The notes under the pieces are model-generated. The model made no database searches. It saw only the letters and a program-made list of their open reading frames with translations, and was not told where the DNA came from. Below, piece after piece: positions 6,307 through 18,158 of a stretch of DNA of 64,000 nucleotides. Numbering within the stretch: position 1 is the first letter of the stretch; every line of letters starts with the position of its first letter. A program made the translations under genes and the position numbers. Source of the stretch: a virus; the IMG/VR virus record IMGVR_UViG_3300034198_009439, positions 1 to 64,000 of that record; one strand, 5' to 3'.

Positions 6307-8073
6307 TTAAACTGGCGGAGGAACTGCTGCTGGACCACCAGCTTCACCTGGTGTAGCAACCGGGGCAGTCGTTTCTGGAGGAAGTCCTAGTTGCTGCTCG
6401 GCACCCTCTGGCGGAACATTTTCGGCAGTTTCTAAATCGCCTTCAATATCACTAGTGCTTAGACCAATACTACGAAGATCGGTTCCTTTTGCTTCTGTTT
6501 CCTCATCTTCTGGTTTGCTACGCTCTTCATGCCACAACTTCTCATTTTCTTTAATCTCTTCTTGGCTTAGACCCAAGAATCGTTTCATAGCAAATCTAGT
6601 ACTCATATAGGGCAATTGAGAAACAGAACCAAACACGTTTACTCTAACTTGATCTATTTCACTTTGACGATAAGCGGCAAAATTTTGGGGAGGATTAAAA
6701 GCTAAGTCAAACAGACCAGCATCTATATTGAATCCACGCCAACGCAAGAACAATTTAAATTCTTCATTTAATTTACGAGCCATGTAACTCTGTAATCTTT
6801 CGCAGTACTGATTGAATCTATATTCTTGTATAAGTGCTGTTCCTACCTTGCCATCAACTAATGGACGCTCACTATCTTCTGGTCCAGTAGGTAAATAACT
6901 ACTTGGAACTCGCAGACCACGAGCAAGACGATTATTGAAATATTTCAGATCGTCAATTTCTCCAAGATTGCTTCCGCCCGCCAGAGTAGTAACATCACTT
7001 CCACGACCGTCTGCGGTAACTGGAAAGAAGTAGTCCTCATTTATGGAAAGTGGATTGTATGTGGCATCTAGCATGCTTTGACCACCGTGTACGCTGGGTA
7101 TACGACGTTGATGTATTTCGTCTTTAATTCTATTGACGAATGCCATAGCTAGATGACTAGGCATATTTCCTACGTCAATTTTAAATATTCTACGCTCAGG
7201 AGCACGTTGAACACGATAAATTAAGATAGCATCTTCTAACAATTCTTTTTGTTTATATACTTTAAATATGTTTTCTAGTATGCTTTGACCAAACGGCCAG
7301 TATCTATCTAGCCCTTCAGTTAAACTAAGATGCACAACGTGTTTTGCGTCAATGGCACTTTCATTTATACCTAAGCTAAATCTACTGCCAGTGGTTCCAT
7401 ACGGCTCATTTGGAACAGTGTAGCTGTAAGGAGCACTGTATCCAGCAGTTGGTGGTTGTGCTTGAAAGTCAGTGGTGGTTTTTTCTGCTACAGTTAAATT
7501 TTGTAAATTTGGATTAATATCCTTCAGCACATACTGTTCTGGTTCTTTGCCTTCGCTTTCATTTACTATGACTTTAACTACCTTAGTCATATCAACCCAA
7601 TATAGTTTGAAATTTTCTGGGTCGCGAACAAATACCTGATCACCGTACTTTACAGTGTTTCTAAATATTTTGAAGATTCTGGTGTTCATTTCATTTAGAT
7701 TACACCATTGCTGTAGTTGTTTGCTTATTAAATCAACTTCAGTAGTAGTTGGCTCTTCGTGAAACTGAATCTCAAATGGAGTTTTGTTATGTTCATTTTT
7801 TTGAGTACTAAACTCCGATAGTATATCAAGACAAGCATTTATTTCTGGGTCAACGTCCATCATTTCATACTGATTGTAACGCTCAATACGATTTGGGTGT
7901 CCTGTGTAAACTTCTGGCAGTCTACTTTGATAGTTTCTAAACGCAAATTCGTTTGACCAACCACCAGTTGGTTCCTTACCCATACCAGCATTCCAAGCTC
8001 CAGTATTACTATTGTTGCCGCTTATCGGACTTAATGCTCCGTGTATGTTTGTAAATTTGCGTTTGTACGTCAT
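6307..8073 (-). CDS. 20: Portal vertex protein (T4 gp20 family)
   Basis: The 588-residue protein forms the dodecameric portal through which DNA enters and leaves the head. Landmarks are YNQYEMMDVDPEINACLDIL near residue 65, the stretch KVYKQKELLEDAILIYRVQR with APERRIFKIDVGNMP after it near residues 265-305, and LPTGPEDSERPLVDGKVGTA near residues 395-414. All are typical of gp20 of T4 relatives. The C-terminus is a Pro/Ala/Glu-rich tail. It is the first gene of the head block reading leftwards. CTAAATACT at 8093-8101 (minus) lies about 20 bases before the ATG and resembles the late promoter. Confidence 0.95.
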   Translation of the reverse strand: MTYKRKFTNIHGALSPISGNNSNTGAWNAGMGKEPTGGWSNEFAFRNYQSRLPEVYTGHPNRIERYNQYEMMDVDPEINACLDILSEFSTQKNEHNKTPFEIQFHEEPTTTEVDLISKQLQQWCNLNEMNTRIFKIFRNTVKYGDQVFVRDPENFKLYWVDMTKVVKVIVNESEGKEPEQYVLKDINPNLQNLTVAEKTTTDFQAQPPTAGYSAPYSYTVPNEPYGTTGSRFSLGINESAIDAKHVVHLSLTEGLDRYWPFGQSILENIFKVYKQKELLEDAILIYRVQRAPERRIFKIDVGNMPSHLAMAFVNRIKDEIHQRRIPSVHGGQSMLDATYNPLSINEDYFFPVTADGRGSDVTTLAGGSNLGEIDDLKYFNNRLARGLRVPSSYLPTGPEDSERPLVDGKVGTALIQEYRFNQYCERLQSYMARKLNEEFKLFLRWRGFNIDAGLFDLAFNPPQNFAAYRQSEIDQVRVNVFGSVSQLPYMSTRFAMKRFLGLSQEEIKENEKLWHEERSKPEDEETEAKGTDLRSIGLSTSDIEGDLETAENVPPEGAEQQLGLPPETTAPVATPGEAGGPAAVPPPV

Positions 8074-8092: not shown

Positions 8093-8101
8093 GTATTTAG
8101 C
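8093..8101 (-). promoter_or_regulatory. Late-promoter-like motif before portal gene
   Basis: CTAAATACT on the minus strand lies 20 bases before the portal ATG. It matches the ATAAATACT-type motif found before many structural genes here. It overlaps the stop of the tape measure gene. Confidence 0.45.
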
Positions 8102-10733
8102 TCATAGTATGAGTTAGTAGATTTCCTTGAATGCGTTTGCTAGCCATCAGTGTTTCATTTACATTACTGACATGTTGATTATTGACTTTGGATTCTTGTA
8201 TTAGCTCCAACAATCTAGCATTGGTTGCTTCTTGTTGTCGTTTAAGCTCAGCTATTGATTCTTTGAATGTGTTTGCCAAATTTTGAATTTCAAAGTTATC
8301 CAAATTCCCAACATTTGAATAACGTTGATTTTTAATCTCAACCGGTATTGTTCTGCCGTCTGGTAGTGGTACTACTGCCTCTGGACCACGTTCGCCTGCT
8401 ATTGATATGCCGCGTGTTATGCCGCCTTTTGCCATCATTTCTGCGTGAAAATGTGGGCCGGTCCAGTTCGGAGATTTTTTAAAGTATTCTTCACGATTTT
8501 TTCCAGTAAATCCCATATCTCCTAATAGTTTTACTATCTCGTCGGCTTCTTTTTCAGTTTTAGGCGCAGGATCAAGAGTGAAGTCAACTGCTTTTCCTTT
8601 AAGATGCTTGCTATCACTATCACGCTTAGCTAAATCATTAAAGGCTGTTATTCTAGTTCCAGGAAATTGTTTAGCAAATTCTTTTATTTTTGCTAGCAAC
8701 ATTTCATCAGTGTCGGCTCCGCCTTTTGTGGTTCCTCCGTATACTTCCGTGGATTTTATATTTAATCCTTCATATTTTCCAGTTCCGGGAATATATTCTT
8801 TACCTACTGTGGCAGGTGAACTGTTTGGGTTAGTCTGTCCAATACCAGATGCTTTTACAGTGCTAAGAGTTTGAGTTTTTTCTAAATCTGTTCTATTAGT
8901 TTTTATATCGTTTTGAACTCTGGCTAATTCAGATTCTGCTTTTGTTAACTCGATGTTCGCGTGTTTTAGTCTGGTCTCAGCGGCTGACACAGCCTGCGCC
9001 GTACCTGGCGTCAGGTTTTTCTCTTCTTTGCGGCTTTCTTGATGTAAGGCGTTGATTTGACTCTCAAGTTTTTGAATTATTTCTTTATCGTGTTCTGAAT
9101 CTAGCGATTTTTTTTCTTTATTTAGCGTTTCTATCTCTGATTCAAGCGTTTTTATACGTTTCACGCTTTGTTCTTCTTCTTCTTTTGTCGGTATTCTTCT
9201 TAAATCTTTAACTGTTTGTTGTTCTTTGTCTCTTGTTGTCTTTGCTTTCTTTAATTTTTCTTTAGCTTCTACCTCTTCTTTCATTGAGTCTATCAATTGT
9301 TTTTTAAGTTTTATTTCTTTAGGAACTTCTTGTCCGGCGAACTCAAACATCTTAGTAAGTACAGTGTATGTCCCGTCTGCTAATTTGTCCATTGCCCACG
9401 TGGCGGTTTTACTACTTACCATAAACTTTTCTATTTCTACTCCTAGATCGTATAATCGCTGTTTAGTGTTTGCCAATTCTGCGTTTTGTCCAGTAGTGGA
9501 TTCCAAAGTCTCTTTTCGTTTTTTTAAAATAGCATCCATTTCTTGTGGGGTTATTTCTTTACGATTAACTAGATTTCTTAATTCAGCGTAAGATTTCGTG
9601 TATAGAGAAGCGTCACCCACGTGTTGCGCTAGCTGTCCCATTGGTCCTATCACAGTGCCGGCAGCTTTTTTAATTTCGTTGAATCCGTCAATAGCACCCA
9701 ATGTGCCGTTTCTAATTCGTTGAACTATTTCTACGCCCATACCCCCAGTTTGTTGAACAAACTGTTTGGCAGCATCCGTACTAACACTGCCGCTCATCAT
9801 ATCGCGCAAACCCTGTGCTATAGACTCGGCGCCGGCTGATTTTAAGACTACGTTTAAATCGTTCGCTGATTTTTGAACGTGCTCAGGCAATTGAGCCATG
9901 GCGGCGGCAAATCTAGTTTCACTCATTGCCTGATCGCGCATTGTTTGAATGTCTTTTTTCTGTAATCCAGTTAATTTAGTAAGAGTGTCTAATTCTTCAA
10001 TGTAAGTTTTGGTGCCATCGCGCAGGTCTTTAGTATTTTTATTTCCAATCAACCCCCATTTTTGCTGCTGTGAGATATAAGTTAATTGAAGATCGTTGAA
10101 ATCGCCTACTGATATGCCCAACTTTTGAAAATCGTCTCTAATTCCTCTGGATGAAACTGCTACTAGTTCAAAGTCTTTACGACCGGATATTACAGAACCG
10201 CCATACGCACCTAGTTCTTTGCTAAATTTTGCCAGCACTTTTCCAGTGTCTGTAACATTCATTCCAGTTTTACTAATTGAAGATTCTAAATCTTCAAATT
10301 GCTGTAATACACCCGTATCTGCTAGTTGTTCAAAAATTCCATAGGTTTTGTCAAACGTTTTTATTAACTCAAGAGCTATATCGCCGCCGGCGTTAATAAT
10401 ACCCTGAGCTACACCACTTAACGGTCCTAATAATGAAGCAAATCCGGAAAGAGTTTTAGTTGCTAATCCTACAACCGTATTTAAAGATGAAAAACTTCCA
10501 GCTCCAGATGTCAATTGAGAGCTAAATGCTAAAGCACTATTTCCCAATCTTTGTAGTGATGCGGCAGTTTTTTCGTGTCGTGCTTTATTTGCTTCGTCTA
10601 ATTTCTTAGACTGTCCAATAGAAGAGTCAATCGCACCCCTAACACTGTTGCCACTTTCACGCGCAGCGGTTCCAAGTGTACGTAAGCCATCAACGATAGC
10701 TTCAATGTCTTGCGGATCTAAATTTTGAGCCAT
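8097..10733 (-). CDS. Tail tape measure protein with embedded M15-type peptidase domain
   Basis: The 878-residue protein has a hydrophobic N-terminal third (GFASLLGPLSGVAQGIINAG near residue 100), a long coiled coil (about residues 470-615), a peptidase-like domain and the tape-measure C-terminal motif MAKGGITRG, then IAGERGPEAVVPLPDGR. The peptidase-like domain (about 650-765) has HLKGKAVDF (His710, Asp717) and GPHFHAE (His761, His763), the zinc pattern of M15/VanY-like D,D-carboxypeptidases and phage endolysins. The protein would set tail length and, on ejection, cut peptidoglycan. T4 keeps its tail lysozyme in gp5 instead. The gene is divergent from the gp26-like chaperone gene. Tape measure identity is by motif and architecture, not by gp29 similarity. 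Confidence 0.8.
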   Translation of the reverse strand: MAQNLDPQDIEAIVDGLRTLGTAARESGNSVRGAIDSSIGQSKKLDEANKARHEKTAASLQRLGNSALAFSSQLTSGAGSFSSLNTVVGLATKTLSGFASLLGPLSGVAQGIINAGGDIALELIKTFDKTYGIFEQLADTGVLQQFEDLESSISKTGMNVTDTGKVLAKFSKELGAYGGSVISGRKDFELVAVSSRGIRDDFQKLGISVGDFNDLQLTYISQQQKWGLIGNKNTKDLRDGTKTYIEELDTLTKLTGLQKKDIQTMRDQAMSETRFAAAMAQLPEHVQKSANDLNVVLKSAGAESIAQGLRDMMSGSVSTDAAKQFVQQTGGMGVEIVQRIRNGTLGAIDGFNEIKKAAGTVIGPMGQLAQHVGDASLYTKSYAELRNLVNRKEITPQEMDAILKKRKETLESTTGQNAELANTKQRLYDLGVEIEKFMVSSKTATWAMDKLADGTYTVLTKMFEFAGQEVPKEIKLKKQLIDSMKEEVEAKEKLKKAKTTRDKEQQTVKDLRRIPTKEEEEQSVKRIKTLESEIETLNKEKKSLDSEHDKEIIQKLESQINALHQESRKEEKNLTPGTAQAVSAAETRLKHANIELTKAESELARVQNDIKTNRTDLEKTQTLSTVKASGIGQTNPNSSPATVGKEYIPGTGKYEGLNIKSTEVYGGTTKGGADTDEMLLAKIKEFAKQFPGTRITAFNDLAKRDSDSKHLKGKAVDFTLDPAPKTEKEADEIVKLLGDMGFTGKNREEYFKKSPNWTGPHFHAEMMAKGGITRGISIAGERGPEAVVPLPDGRTIPVEIKNQRYSNVGNLDNFEIQNLANTFKESIAELKRQQEATNARLLELIQESKVNNQHVSNVNETLMASKRIQGNLLTHTMS

Positions 10734-10756: not shown

Positions 10757-10797
10757 AGTATTTATTCTTTTGAATTTTACTAACTTAGGACTAATAA

Positions 10798-11622
10798 ATG
10801 AGCAACAACCCACTTCAACAATATTTTCGTAGACCCGCAATTTACATCAAACTTCCAAGTCTTGGTAGATACTACGATGATACAGTGATTGAACGAACAG
10901 AAACAGATGAGCTTCCTGTTTACCCAATGACTACCATAGACGAAATCACTAGTAAAACTCCAGACGCAGTTTTTAATGGACACGCGGTAGTAGATATTAT
11001 TCATAGCTGTGTTCCAAATATTAAAAACGCCTGGAAAATCAACACCATTGACTTAGACGCTATTATAGTAGCCATAAAGGTAGCCAGTAACGGAGAAAAA
11101 ATGGAAATAGAGTCGGTTTGCCCTAGCTGCGAAACTGACGCTACGTATGATATCAATCTGATAAGCGTACTTAGTCAGCAAAAAAATGTTGACTATGAGC
11201 GCACATTGAATTTAAGAGAACTGGAAATAAAATTTAAACCTATAACATACGCAGAAGCAAATAAAAATGGTATGGCTCAGTATGAGTTACAGAAATTTTT
11301 ACAGGATCTACAACAAGCCGAAGAATCGGAAGAAAAACAAAATATGATTCGTGAAACCGTTGCTAAACTAAATGAAAAATTTTCCGAAATAGTAGGCGGA
11401 ACCGTTGAGTATATTAAAACGCCAGACTGTACCGTTTATGAAGCCGAGTTCATAAAAGAGTTTTTAACTAAGTGCGACCGAAATACAAGCACCGCAATTA
11501 GAGAACACAGTGTGCGATTAAAAAACGAAAATCAATTAAAGCCCTTAAAAATCAAATGTATGAATTGTTCACACGAATACGAACAACAATTAGTACTGAA
11601 TATCAGTGATTTTTTCGGTTAA
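10798..11622 (+). CDS. 26: gp26-like protein, probable tail assembly chaperone (zero-frame product)
   Basis: The 274-residue protein begins MSNNPLQQYFRRPAIYIKLP and contains LPVYPMTTIDEITSKTPDA, a pattern I associate with proteins annotated gp26 (baseplate hub) in marine T4 relatives. Two zinc-ribbon-like pairs, CPSC (near residue 110) and CMNC (near 258), flank an acidic coiled region. The gene ends in GATTTTTTCGGTTAA, where T TTT TTC is a -1 slippery heptamer two codons before the stop. In many tailed phages the gene next to the tape measure makes a chaperone and, by -1 frameshift, a longer chaperone. Position beside the tape measure and the frameshift signal support that role here. Family assignment is from memory of conserved words. 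Confidence 0.75.
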   Translation: MSNNPLQQYFRRPAIYIKLPSLGRYYDDTVIERTETDELPVYPMTTIDEITSKTPDAVFNGHAVVDIIHSCVPNIKNAWKINTIDLDAIIVAIKVASNGEKMEIESVCPSCETDATYDINLISVLSQQKNVDYERTLNLRELEIKFKPITYAEANKNGMAQYELQKFLQDLQQAEESEEKQNMIRETVAKLNEKFSEIVGGTVEYIKTPDCTVYEAEFIKEFLTKCDRNTSTAIREHSVRLKNENQLKPLKIKCMNCSHEYEQQLVLNISDFFG

Positions 11623-11659
11623 AGCTTCTTCATTTAGACCACGATCAAATGAAGAAGCT
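11610..11659 (+). promoter_or_regulatory. Programmed -1 ribosomal frameshift element
   Basis: The slippery heptamer T TTT TTC (11610-11616) is in the correct phase of the zero frame (GAT TTT TTC GGT TAA). After a 6-base spacer a perfect 13-bp stem starts: AGCTTCTTCATTT (11623-11635) pairs with AAATGAAGAAGCT (11647-11659) around an 11-base loop. A -1 slip continues into the frame of the 65-codon reading frame that ends at 11846. The nearest upstream stop in that frame is at 11607-11609, just before the slippery site. Spacing and structure match known signals such as P2 E/E' and lambda G/T. Confidence 0.9.
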
Positions 11660-11846
11660 GGGTGAGCAAATGTGGAATGATGCCACTAGTCTCAAGGCTC
11701 TATCAATGAAGTTAGCTTGGTACACTCGTGGTTCAATGAGCTACGCAGATGTTCTTAACTTAAGCAAAGAAGAGATGGATCAGTTGAATAAACTAATAGA
11801 CCAAAACTTAGAAACTACTAAGAAAACTAAGTTGCCTTTTTTCTAA
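11649..11846 (+). CDS. 51: gp51-like region, expected as -1 frameshift extension of gp26-like protein
   Basis: The frame encodes 65 residues from the ATG at 11649 (MKKLGEQMWNDATSLKALSM), or 76 residues if entered at 11616 by frameshift. The words KLAWYTRGSMSYADVLNLSK and the ending TKLPFF resemble the small gene called gp51 (baseplate hub assembly catalyst) next to gp26 in marine T4 relatives. There is no ribosome-binding site before the ATG, and the ATG lies inside the frameshift stem-loop, so independent initiation looks poor. The fusion would be 349 residues and the counterpart of lambda gpGT. A terminator follows about 50 bases downstream. Confidence 0.75.
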   Translation: MKKLGEQMWNDATSLKALSMKLAWYTRGSMSYADVLNLSKEEMDQLNKLIDQNLETTKKTKLPFF

Positions 11847-11897
11847 TATGTTTTTATAAAAATGGAACCTTGAGTTCGCCATAAGTCCAAAAAGATT

Positions 11898-11924
11898 AAC
11901 CGATTTTGATATCGGTTATTTTTT
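11898..11924 (+). terminator. Intrinsic terminator after gp26/gp51-like genes
   Basis: A 7-bp stem, AACCGAT (11898-11904) with ATCGGTT (11911-11917), has a 6-base loop and is followed by ATTTTTT. It closes the short rightward operon. Confidence 0.7.
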
Positions 11925-11956
11925 AAGATAATGATTTAGATGAGTGTTTAGTTTAA

Positions 11957-12090: not shown

Positions 12091-12166
12091 GTGTTGTTGT
12101 CAGCCGCAACGAGTGAAACGAGTTGTATGACAACAACACGGGTTGTTGAGTGAAACGAGACAACCC
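12091..12166. other. Two adjacent hairpins with the same loop sequence
   Basis: Hairpin A has a perfect 12-bp stem (GTGTTGTTGTCA at 12091-12102 with TGACAACAACAC at 12128-12139). Hairpin B starts at the next base with a 7-bp stem (GGGTTGT at 12140-12146 with ACAACCC at 12160-12166). Both loops carry the same 12-mer, GAGTGAAACGAG (12111-12122 and 12148-12159). There is no coding frame across them. A structured RNA or protein-binding element is possible. Confidence 0.6.
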
Positions 12167-16391: not shown

Positions 16392-17401
16392 AGATTTTGA
16401 TAAATGTCTAGGAGTAATTTCTTGTCAAATGCGCCTTCAGATAATTGCTGAATCTGTTCTTGTATGATACTATCAACCGACTCAAATTTCATATTTGTGT
16501 AGTCCGTATCGTCTTGTTCTAAATCAACCTTCATGGGAATTAAGGTCATCTCTCGTAGTTGATATTTTGGAAGTAATTGCTCACGAATGAAGTTGCTTTC
16601 TTCGTAGGTAACATCAACATCTAAGTTAATACGCACATGCATGTCCCGTTCCAATAGTGTTTCGTCTGAAAGTATGTCGCTTAATTTATATACACGAAAT
16701 TTAGGTTGATTGGGCCAGCTAACGAATTTAGCTTCGCCACTCCAATCCAGTATCATCATACCGCGATCATCATCGTTCACATCAGCGTAGTTATGTGGAA
16801 ATGCGTTTCCAATATAGGTAATGTTTTTACGAAACTGTCGCTTGTGAAAGTGACCGCTGAACACTCTTTCAAAACCACTCATGTGTTCTGCCTGTAGTTC
16901 TCCGTGATCTGGCATTTCAACCAACGCATTCATATAAAAATGTGGAAGCTCAAAATGTCCAAACATATACTTGCCAGACATGTTCTTGAGTTTTTTCCAA
17001 TCTTCTTGAACTAGCCACGGAGCAATTGTTACGTCACCACTATGAAAAAAGTCATTGATAATTTGTACACGAGACAAATGCTTGGCCCATTCTACGCTGT
17101 GAATGTCGCGCTTATCTCTGTAATAGAGATCATGATTCCCCGGAATGAAAAATACTTGATCAAAAGCAGCATTCAATTGCTCAAGTGCTCGCAATCCAAA
17201 TTGTAGTGTTTGAATATTGATGCTAGCGCGATGATGGTTCCAATCTCCAAGAAAGAAGCATACATCACAGCCGTGTTTCTTGGCGGTATCTATAAACCAT
17301 TCTACGAAATTGGTACAGTCTAGATTGTGTTGAACACTGTTGCTCTTAAGTCCCCAGTGAATATCAGAGCAAACTGCCGCACGATTAAAAAGTTTTCCCA
17401 T
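16388..17401 (-). CDS. 47: Recombination endonuclease subunit gp47 (Mre11/SbcD-like)
   Basis: The 337-residue calcineurin-like phosphoesterase has the metal-binding motif series CSDIHWG (residues 12-18), FFLGDWNHH (near 50), FIPGNHDLYYRDKRD (near 96) and FSGHFHKRQF (near 185). It is the nuclease partner of gp46. Length matches T4 gp47 (339). AAAGGAAA before the ATG lies inside the end of the upstream homing endonuclease gene, whose stop overlaps this gene by 17 bases. gp46 follows with an ATGA overlap. Confidence 0.95.
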   Translation of the reverse strand: MGKLFNRAAVCSDIHWGLKSNSVQHNLDCTNFVEWFIDTAKKHGCDVCFFLGDWNHHRASINIQTLQFGLRALEQLNAAFDQVFFIPGNHDLYYRDKRDIHSVEWAKHLSRVQIINDFFHSGDVTIAPWLVQEDWKKLKNMSGKYMFGHFELPHFYMNALVEMPDHGELQAEHMSGFERVFSGHFHKRQFRKNITYIGNAFPHNYADVNDDDRGMMILDWSGEAKFVSWPNQPKFRVYKLSDILSDETLLERDMHVRINLDVDVTYEESNFIREQLLPKYQLREMTLIPMKVDLEQDDTDYTNMKFESVDSIIQEQIQQLSEGAFDKKLLLDIYQNL

Positions 17402-18158
17402 TTATTTCCTTTAAAAAATATCCATTGTGAAACAAGCCAATCGCCGATTTTTCTCTGATAGTACACATCCATTGACCTGTTTTTCGTTGAAACTCGCTTA
17501 CACTATTGTATACTTCTATGCTACCATCTTCACGCAAAACGGTAACTTTCTTTGAATTTTTTTCAGCTCCCTTTAGTCCATTTTGAATACTATAGTGCTT
17601 TACGAGTTCAGGATTTTCTTCTCTCCATTTTTTAATTCCAGCACTATGTTTATCCTTTGATCCCGGCACATATTCATAGTATCGCTTTAACGTTTCGGAC
17701 CTATTTGTGTTAGCCTCATTAGTGTGACAGTGCTTTATCATTTCTTTTCTTTGTTCAAATGTAGTATTACTCCACCGTTTTTGATTAAATACTCTCCATT
17801 GTTCTCCTAATGCTTCGCGTATGATTTCTATTTCATCATCGTTAAACATTGTTAGATCGTTATTTAACCCATCACCGCCTGGAGTACTGTTTAATCCATT
17901 TTTATAAGAATCGTAATGTTTGATATACTTTATTTCGGATAATGCAAGTTGAGAAATTGATGTAAAACCGCTATCAATTACTTCATATACACAATTTTTA
18001 GAACCGTATTTGTGTATAGCCTGATGAAATTTTCCTTTTGGATTAGTGATAGAATTTTTGAGGTGAGTTTTCCATCTACTCATTTTGTATTCTGGCTTTG
18101 TGTCTAAGCCAATATAAACTTGATTGAGTGGAATTATCGTGACTTTGTATATAAACAT
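17385..18158 (-). CDS. GIY-YIG homing endonuclease (Seg-like)
   Basis: The 257-residue protein opens FIYKVTIIPLNQVYIGLDTK, the GIY-YIG core in the variant IYK...VYIG. The catalytic Arg and helix (KMSRWKTHLKNS), AIHKYGSKNCVYEVI and a conserved Glu (ALSEIKYIKHYDSYKNGLNS) follow, the signature of T4 Seg-type enzymes. The C-terminal part has a NUMOD-like DNA-binding repeat (VYNSVSEFQRKTGQWMCTI). It is inserted between gp55 and gp47 and its end overlaps gp47 by 17 bases, so it was fitted in without breaking the operon. GATAAATA at 18186-18193 (minus) may give it its own late promoter. Confidence 0.85.
   Translation of the reverse strand: MFIYKVTIIPLNQVYIGLDTKPEYKMSRWKTHLKNSITNPKGKFHQAIHKYGSKNCVYEVIDSGFTSISQLALSEIKYIKHYDSYKNGLNSTPGGDGLNNDLTMFNDDEIEIIREALGEQWRVFNQKRWSNTTFEQRKEMIKHCHTNEANTNRSETLKRYYEYVPGSKDKHSAGIKKWREENPELVKHYSIQNGLKGAEKNSKKVTVLREDGSIEVYNSVSEFQRKTGQWMCTIREKSAIGLFHNGYFLKEINGKTF

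Follow-up and report, generated by a model that had tools for sequence, protein, structure and literature searches.

In the viral DNA analyzed here, an open reading frame (ORF) resembling gp26 of phage T4 ends at a stop codon across which the −1 frame stays open. Does this locus hold one gene or two, how is the −1 frame translated, and what do the products do? The locus lies in the window, i.e., the whole 64-kb stretch that we analyzed, which is taken out of a 101.7-kb virus record that is itself a fragment. A preliminary description of the window had proposed that a programmed −1 frameshift signal joins a gp26-like and a gp51-like gene and that the products form a tail assembly chaperone pair. 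With high probability, the locus holds just one gene, for a tail assembly chaperone of the T4 gp26/gp51 family (PF12322), which gives rise to two isoforms by programmed −1 ribosomal frameshifting.

Results

A PF12322 gene ends in an open −1 frame

The zero-frame ORF (10798-11622, + strand; 274 aa), which is preceded by a Shine-Dalgarno sequence, AGGA (10787-10790, +), 7 nt 5' of its ATG at 10798, matches Pfam family PF12322 (E=8e-16; 58.8 bits, exceeding the curated cut-off of 24.5) and phrog_150 in PHROGs (E=3e-16). We refer to its product as the gp26-like short form. The ORF ends in AGT GAT TTT TTC GGT TAA, in which the slippery heptamer T TTT TTC (11610-11616, +) lies in X_XXY_YYZ phase and is followed by a 6-nt spacer, GGTTAA (11617-11622, +), that includes the zero-frame stop TAA at 11620-11622. 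The −1 frame is open from the slippery site and closes at TAA 11844-11846. A −1 shift would, thus, yield a fusion, join(10798..11616,11616..11846), of 349 aa in which a 273-residue body is followed by a 76-residue extension (11616-11846 with the stop, +). Phase, spacer and fusion are exactly as first described.

An AlphaFold2 model of the 273-residue body has a pLDDT of 88.5. Among viral models, those closest to it in fold are baseplate hub assembly proteins and chaperones of T4-like phages. Searches of the PDB by sequence and by fold gave nothing; as no entry matches the fold of the body, no solved tail assembly chaperone serves as structural support. No Rfam family was found at gathering level at the frameshift locus. 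A terminator-like hairpin with a T-run (11897-11926, +) lies 3' of the −1 stop, so that the unit probably consists of the gp26-like gene alone. The 101.7-kb record contains a single PF12322 gene; as the record is a fragment, a second, gp51-type gene could lie elsewhere.

The slippery heptamer is conserved in relatives

The heptamer sequence TTTTTTC occurs 40 times in the window and is not significant alone; we, therefore, dropped its bare count as evidence and turned to relatives. Several lines of evidence argue that the site is maintained. First, in all 90 loci of a jumbo-type set, which includes 80 IMG/VR loci (30-75% identity) and nine named phages, T TTT TTC lies in phase and the −1 frame is open from the same point. 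Protein identity in this set falls to ∼30%, and RaK2, 121Q, PA5oct and Atu_ph07 belong to it. Junctions in related phages, thus, keep the two frames and the site together. The heptamer is also present in 84/84 further loci of cyanophage/Aeh1 type. T4 and its close kin are without it, whereas cyanophages and Aeh1-like T4 relatives have it; outliers are Vibrio phage 32 (T TTT TTT), RL38J1 (T TTT TTG) and Cygsa01 (none). Second, the Phe-Phe at the slippery site is encoded by TTT TTC every time, with the preceding codon ending in T, whereas Phe-Phe elsewhere in the same genes is TTC TTT or TTT TTT in 89 of 103 cases and TTT TTC in nine of 103. Third, the base 3' of the heptamer is G in 172/178 loci, which gives Arg in the −1 frame. 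The zero-frame stop lies anywhere from 1 to 11 codons 3' of the heptamer. For 49 less-redundant genes, and given their own codon usage, the joint chance of this conservation is ∼10^-50, a rough index that includes shared ancestry. Compared across relatives, a chance origin of the signal is untenable, and the conservation is decisive.

Transcriptional slippage on the T6 run in place of ribosomal frameshifting would have the same outcome at the protein level, and a homopolymer run is indeed there. However, 179 of 180 loci have exactly six T and no run exceeds seven, which is short for slippage by RNA polymerase, a process that usually involves runs of 8-9 or more. Moreover, the in-phase TTT TTC and the downstream structure (see below) fit slippage by the ribosome. 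We regard a transcriptional origin of the long form as very improbable and retain ribosomal frameshifting.

A second T TTT TTC in the window (11837-11843, +) lies in the phase of the −1 frame directly before its stop. Relatives use other codons for the same PFF, and we dropped this copy as a signal and consider it a probable coincidence.

The −1 frame encodes a domain under purifying selection

Across relatives, the length and residues of the −1 frame are kept while the zero-frame stop moves. Among 51 relatives, the invariant residues are FFR, a central W, R-G and N, and conservation begins at the slippery site itself, with the invariant FFR. Substitutions 3' of the zero-frame stop fall on codon positions 1:2:3 of the −1 frame in a ratio of 456:214:1070, counted over 60 disjoint locus pairs, not all of which are evolutionarily independent given that some loci are near-copies of one another. 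This pattern is the mark of a translated protein and, judged by these alignments, the −1 frame evolves under purifying selection. AlphaFold2 predicts a four-helix domain for the 76 residues (pLDDT 88.8). A fold search with this domain found nothing at E<0.001; hits to two tail chaperones had E about 5, which we treated as noise. The domain matches the −1 domain of RaK2-type phages firmly (1e-14).

In light of these findings, it is hardly conceivable that the Phe-Phe is kept simply as part of the protein and that the hairpin and the open −1 frame reflect coincidence or a decayed gene. T4 gp26 also keeps Phe-Phe near its end, in KEFFELL, and there is no frameshift there; however, its codons in T4 gp26 are TTC TTT, not a slippery sequence, in contrast to the T TTT TTC of 178 frameshift-type loci. 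In addition, the purifying selection on the −1 frame, the invariant residues and the confident helical model of its domain contradict such a reading. Heptamer conservation, codon choice and the substitution pattern of the −1 frame in effect refute it.

The −1 frame lacks a start of its own

The only early ATG of the −1 frame (11649-11651, +) is an unlikely start; it lies in the 3' arm of the downstream hairpin, and the sequence upstream of it, TTCTTCATTTAGACCACGATCAA, contains no Shine-Dalgarno sequence. In none of the 90 jumbo-type loci is the first ATG of the −1 frame preceded by a Shine-Dalgarno sequence, and in 39 of them it falls within the domain, at codon 38. The description of ATG 11649 as buried in the stem and lacking a ribosome site is, thus, confirmed, and the lack of a ribosome site extends to the relatives.

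These observations bear on a rival reading, in which a small gene of its own occupies the −1 frame and translation starts at ATG 11649, through re-initiation or an internal ribosome site. TAA 11620 is only 27 nt before this ATG, near enough for re-initiation; the −1 frame is annotated as a separate ORF in the records of Phosso, 121Q and P-SSM5; cyanophages have an ATG at −1 codon 5; and in Pseudomonas phage Cygsa01 the two ORFs overlap in TAATG with no heptamer. By contrast, a separate start would have to operate with the missing Shine-Dalgarno sequences and the ATGs at codon 38, and from within a hairpin. It would also leave unexplained why conservation begins upstream of any start and why the codons of the heptamer are chosen as they are. 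We consider a separate gene improbable. Programmed −1 frameshifting, as originally proposed, is strongly supported by the conserved heptamer, the open and selected −1 frame and the missing start.

The Cygsa01 locus (L112, 3300-3482), in which the gp26 ORF and the gp51-like ORF share the TAATG overlap, suggests re-initiation in place of frameshifting in this one long-branched case.

A downstream hairpin and its counterparts in relatives

A perfect hairpin (11623-11659, +) begins 6 nt 3' of the heptamer, within the ∼5-9 nt expected for a stimulatory structure. Its arms, AGCTTCTTCATTT (11623-11635) and AAATGAAGAAGCT (11647-11659), pair without a mismatch over 13 bp and enclose an 11-nt loop, matching the preliminary description to the base. 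It is the only perfect hairpin of at least 13 bp (loop 3-20 nt) in the 64-kb window, six dinucleotide shuffles of the window contained none each, and the 60-nt downstream fold has a z of −3.3. Based on its complementarity and fold score, this hairpin is a putative stimulator.

In relatives, the mean z of the downstream 60-nt fold is −2.23 in 44 jumbo-type loci versus about −0.1 in four control windows taken from these loci, and it is −1.64 in 15 T4-like and cyanophage loci. For the stem, the comparison of junctions gave a mixed result: most clades keep its position, but its sequence and architecture have changed, and there is no single conserved element. The window shares with L011 a GCTTCTT.../...AAGAAGC stem that includes one compensatory change from C-G to U-A. 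A large clade has a 10-bp stem, GCCTAAY/RTTAGGC, in which 95.7% of cells are paired; its covariation is 0.242 versus 0.149 in shuffled alignments (0/500 as high), with one pair changed on both sides and few events. In a third clade (L012-L027), the downstream structure is weak or long-range. By the fold z test, no significant nearby hairpin was found in L013, L018, L020, L023, L025, L006 and L007.

Two further elements were observed around the heptamer. In L012-L027 and L043, the stretch ∼10-95 nt after the heptamer holds a conserved GCCTCCT, with AGGAGGC ∼66 nt on as its nearest good partner; this potential pairing is present in most, though not all, members of the clade. The two resemble an anti-Shine-Dalgarno and a Shine-Dalgarno sequence, respectively, and AGGAGG precedes an in-frame ATG of the −1 frame; the pair could be a long-range stimulator or a mask over an internal start. 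In the cyanophage loci (L115-L194) and P-SSM5 (L108), a Shine-Dalgarno-like GGAGG or GAGGG lies no more than 20 nt 5' of the heptamer (79/90 T4-like/cyanophage loci) and resembles the upstream stimulator of dnaX. This element also encodes a conserved Glu-Gly and may have a protein-driven origin.

Other features of the window

Downstream of the terminator, a non-coding segment (12091-12166, +) contains two tandem hairpins (fold z = −6.8), both capped by the same 12-mer, GAGTGAAACGAG (12111-12122, 12148-12159), which has no further copy in the 101.7-kb record. Rfam gave nothing at gathering level for 12091-12166, which is a possible structured RNA. Farther on, the segment 13489-14247 (−), which adjoins gp46-like and gp47-like genes, matches NUMOD3 (E=5.5e-10), a motif found in homing endonucleases, and 17385-18158 (−) has no Pfam match, while its start resembles the GIY-YIG type by eye.

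The two products are very probably tail assembly chaperones

The gp26-like gene is 61 nt from a divergent gene for an 878-aa protein (8097-10733, −), next to which lies a T4-type portal protein gene (6307-8073, −; PF07230, E=6e-102). The 878-aa protein has the motif GERGPEAVVPL near its C terminus, and we take GPEAVVPL to be typical of the C termini of tape measure proteins. Syntenic genes are annotated as "similar to tail tape measure protein" in RaK2 and as "structural protein, ESI-MS/MS" in PA5oct. Pfam and PHROGs gave nothing for tape measure at a useful E-value with the 878-aa protein, and GP-E-A-V was present in only 2/81 neighboring genes. Judged by motif and syntenic annotations, this neighbor is a probable tape measure protein, in line with the placement of the locus beside the tape measure gene in the preliminary description.

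At the sequence level, the short and long forms share an N-terminal body, as in systems of the G/GT type, and the two products are very probably a tail assembly chaperone pair. We consider it unlikely that the frameshift is real and the pair is only a baseplate hub component or hub chaperone that does not act on the tape measure protein in the manner of lambda G/GT. T4 gp26 and gp51 figure in the literature as chaperones of hub assembly, and gp26 is sometimes counted as a hub subunit (PMC3004832); however, the logic of a short and a long isoform and the divergent arrangement with the probable tape measure gene argue against a role in the hub only. Moreover, tail assembly chaperones of T4-like phages have been identified in print. 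Citing Vladimirov, Gautam & Davidson 2022 (Virology 566:9-15), one paper states that some T4-like phages have short and long chaperone genes in place of frameshifting (PMC10885494), and another names it as the source on poly-T slippery sites in the chaperone (TAC-N) genes of T4-like phages (PMC12846349). The chaperone pair is the best reading of the two products. As far as these citing papers convey it, the chaperone reading of gp26 and gp51 had been put forward before, as had frameshifting at poly-T sites in T4-like phages, and neither is new.

Discussion

From the sequence, we infer that frameshifting takes place during infection, with what efficiency it does so and that the products act as chaperones; the mechanism that we propose is as follows. 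Most ribosomes would stop at TAA 11620-11622 and release the 274-aa short form. A minority would stall at the hairpin (11623-11659), where both tRNAs would slip one base back on T TTT TTC, and these ribosomes would then read the −1 frame to 11846 and make the 349-aa long form, which ends in an additional helical domain. If the products work as lambda G/GT does (PMC5009743), the short form, or the common body, would coat the probable tape measure protein encoded at 8097-10733, and the long form, made less often, would bring in subunits of the tail tube through its additional domain.

How do these isoforms relate to T4 gp26 and gp51? T4 genes 26 (minus strand) and 51 (plus strand) are separate and divergently transcribed. 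Both proteins match PF12322 and phrog_150, and they are, therefore, paralogues. T4 gp51 is ∼45 residues longer than gp26 at the C terminus, and this extension falls in the C-terminal part covered by phrog_634 ("baseplate hub assembly catalyst"). The proposal that a signal joins gp26-like and gp51-like genes has held as to the frameshift signal; however, given that T4 26 and 51 are paralogues, the window locus is, as its sequence reads, one gene with two products, a gp26-like short and a gp51-like long form. The −1 frame corresponds just to the ∼45-residue extension of gp51, and by sequence it does so weakly. The −1 domain of the window does not match phrog_634, and the comparison of the window-type domain with the T4 gp51 C terminus alone is not significant (hhalign E=0.056), for which reason we do not claim one-to-one homology. 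Against pooled T4-like C-terminal domains, the profile match is weak (E=6.6e-4), with a score of 21.9, and the highest score among 60 shuffled nulls was 14.2. The label gp51-like is, thus, appropriate by position and logic and weak by sequence.

In a tree of the body, T4 gp26 is in one clade and gp51 in another, and the two are joined with moderate support (90/86) inside a group with frameshifting Aeh1-type phages (95/93), within a larger frameshifting set. The simplest history suggested by this tree is an ancestral frameshift and, subsequently, a duplication that replaced it in the T4 lineage. On balance, we favor a broader version of this history, in which a frameshifted single-gene chaperone would be ancestral across PF12322, from RaK2/Atu_ph07-type phages to cyanophages. 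T4 26 and 51 would have arisen by a duplication that froze the short and the long product, with the slippery codons lost and Phe-Phe kept, and the stimulator would have been rewired repeatedly, as a near hairpin, as GCCTAAY/RTTAGGC and as long-range GCCTCCT/AGGAGGC with its ∼66-nt loop.

No frameshift annotation was found in the nine named jumbo-phage records. Likewise, a literature search on frameshifting in jumbo-phage tail chaperones found no paper on the RaK2/Atu_ph07-type lineage, the scope of Vladimirov et al. 2022 being taken from papers that cite it. The locus corrects the annotation of these jumbo-phage records, in which the second product is recorded as a separate hypothetical gene or is missing; it extends lambda-style frameshifting, the textbook mechanism, to distant relatives of T4, which is the standard exception; and it offers a clear-cut comparison in which gene duplication would have taken the place of a frameshift. 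How tail chaperones are understood to work is unchanged. The mechanism itself is well known in other phages, and the window is a solid further example in giant-phage relatives.

Among known systems, lambda G/GT is similar in having a short form, a −1 frameshifted long form that is unlikely to have its own start and an adjoining tape measure gene. It differs in its slippery site, G GGA AAG, in having no detectable sequence relation to the window's gene and in the tape measure gene, which is downstream in lambda and divergent in the window. P2 E/E', the tail chaperone of another myovirus system, also relies on a T-rich heptamer, T TTT TTG, for its −1 frameshift; however, the protein family and the gene order are different. 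The closest named relatives, RaK2, 121Q, PA5oct and Atu_ph07, have the heptamer and the −1 frame in common with the window at 29-32% identity, and most share the order of portal, structural-protein and gp26 genes; the upstream neighbors differ in Atu_ph07. The "gp26" and "gp51" ORFs of cyanophages and Aeh1-like phages (P-SSM5, phiAS5, S13) have T TTT TTC in the same place after a PF12322 body, and some records of cyanophage/Aeh1 and S13 type label the −1 product as a separate "gp51" or "baseplate hub assembly catalyst". Their −1 frame, of 59-64 aa, encodes a shorter C-terminal domain than that of the window and clearly matches the T4 gp51 C terminus (hhalign E=6e-9), and cyanophages, in contrast to the window, add GGAGG or GAGGG 5' of the heptamer. 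The tail chaperones of T4-like phages, as far as the citing papers describe them, share with the window the PF12322/phrog_150 family, short and long forms of one body, a tail gene context and poly-T sites. T4 itself, with a gp51 C-terminal domain that is only weakly similar, makes the two forms from two genes, whereas in the window a single gene would give both by means of T TTT TTC and the hairpin.
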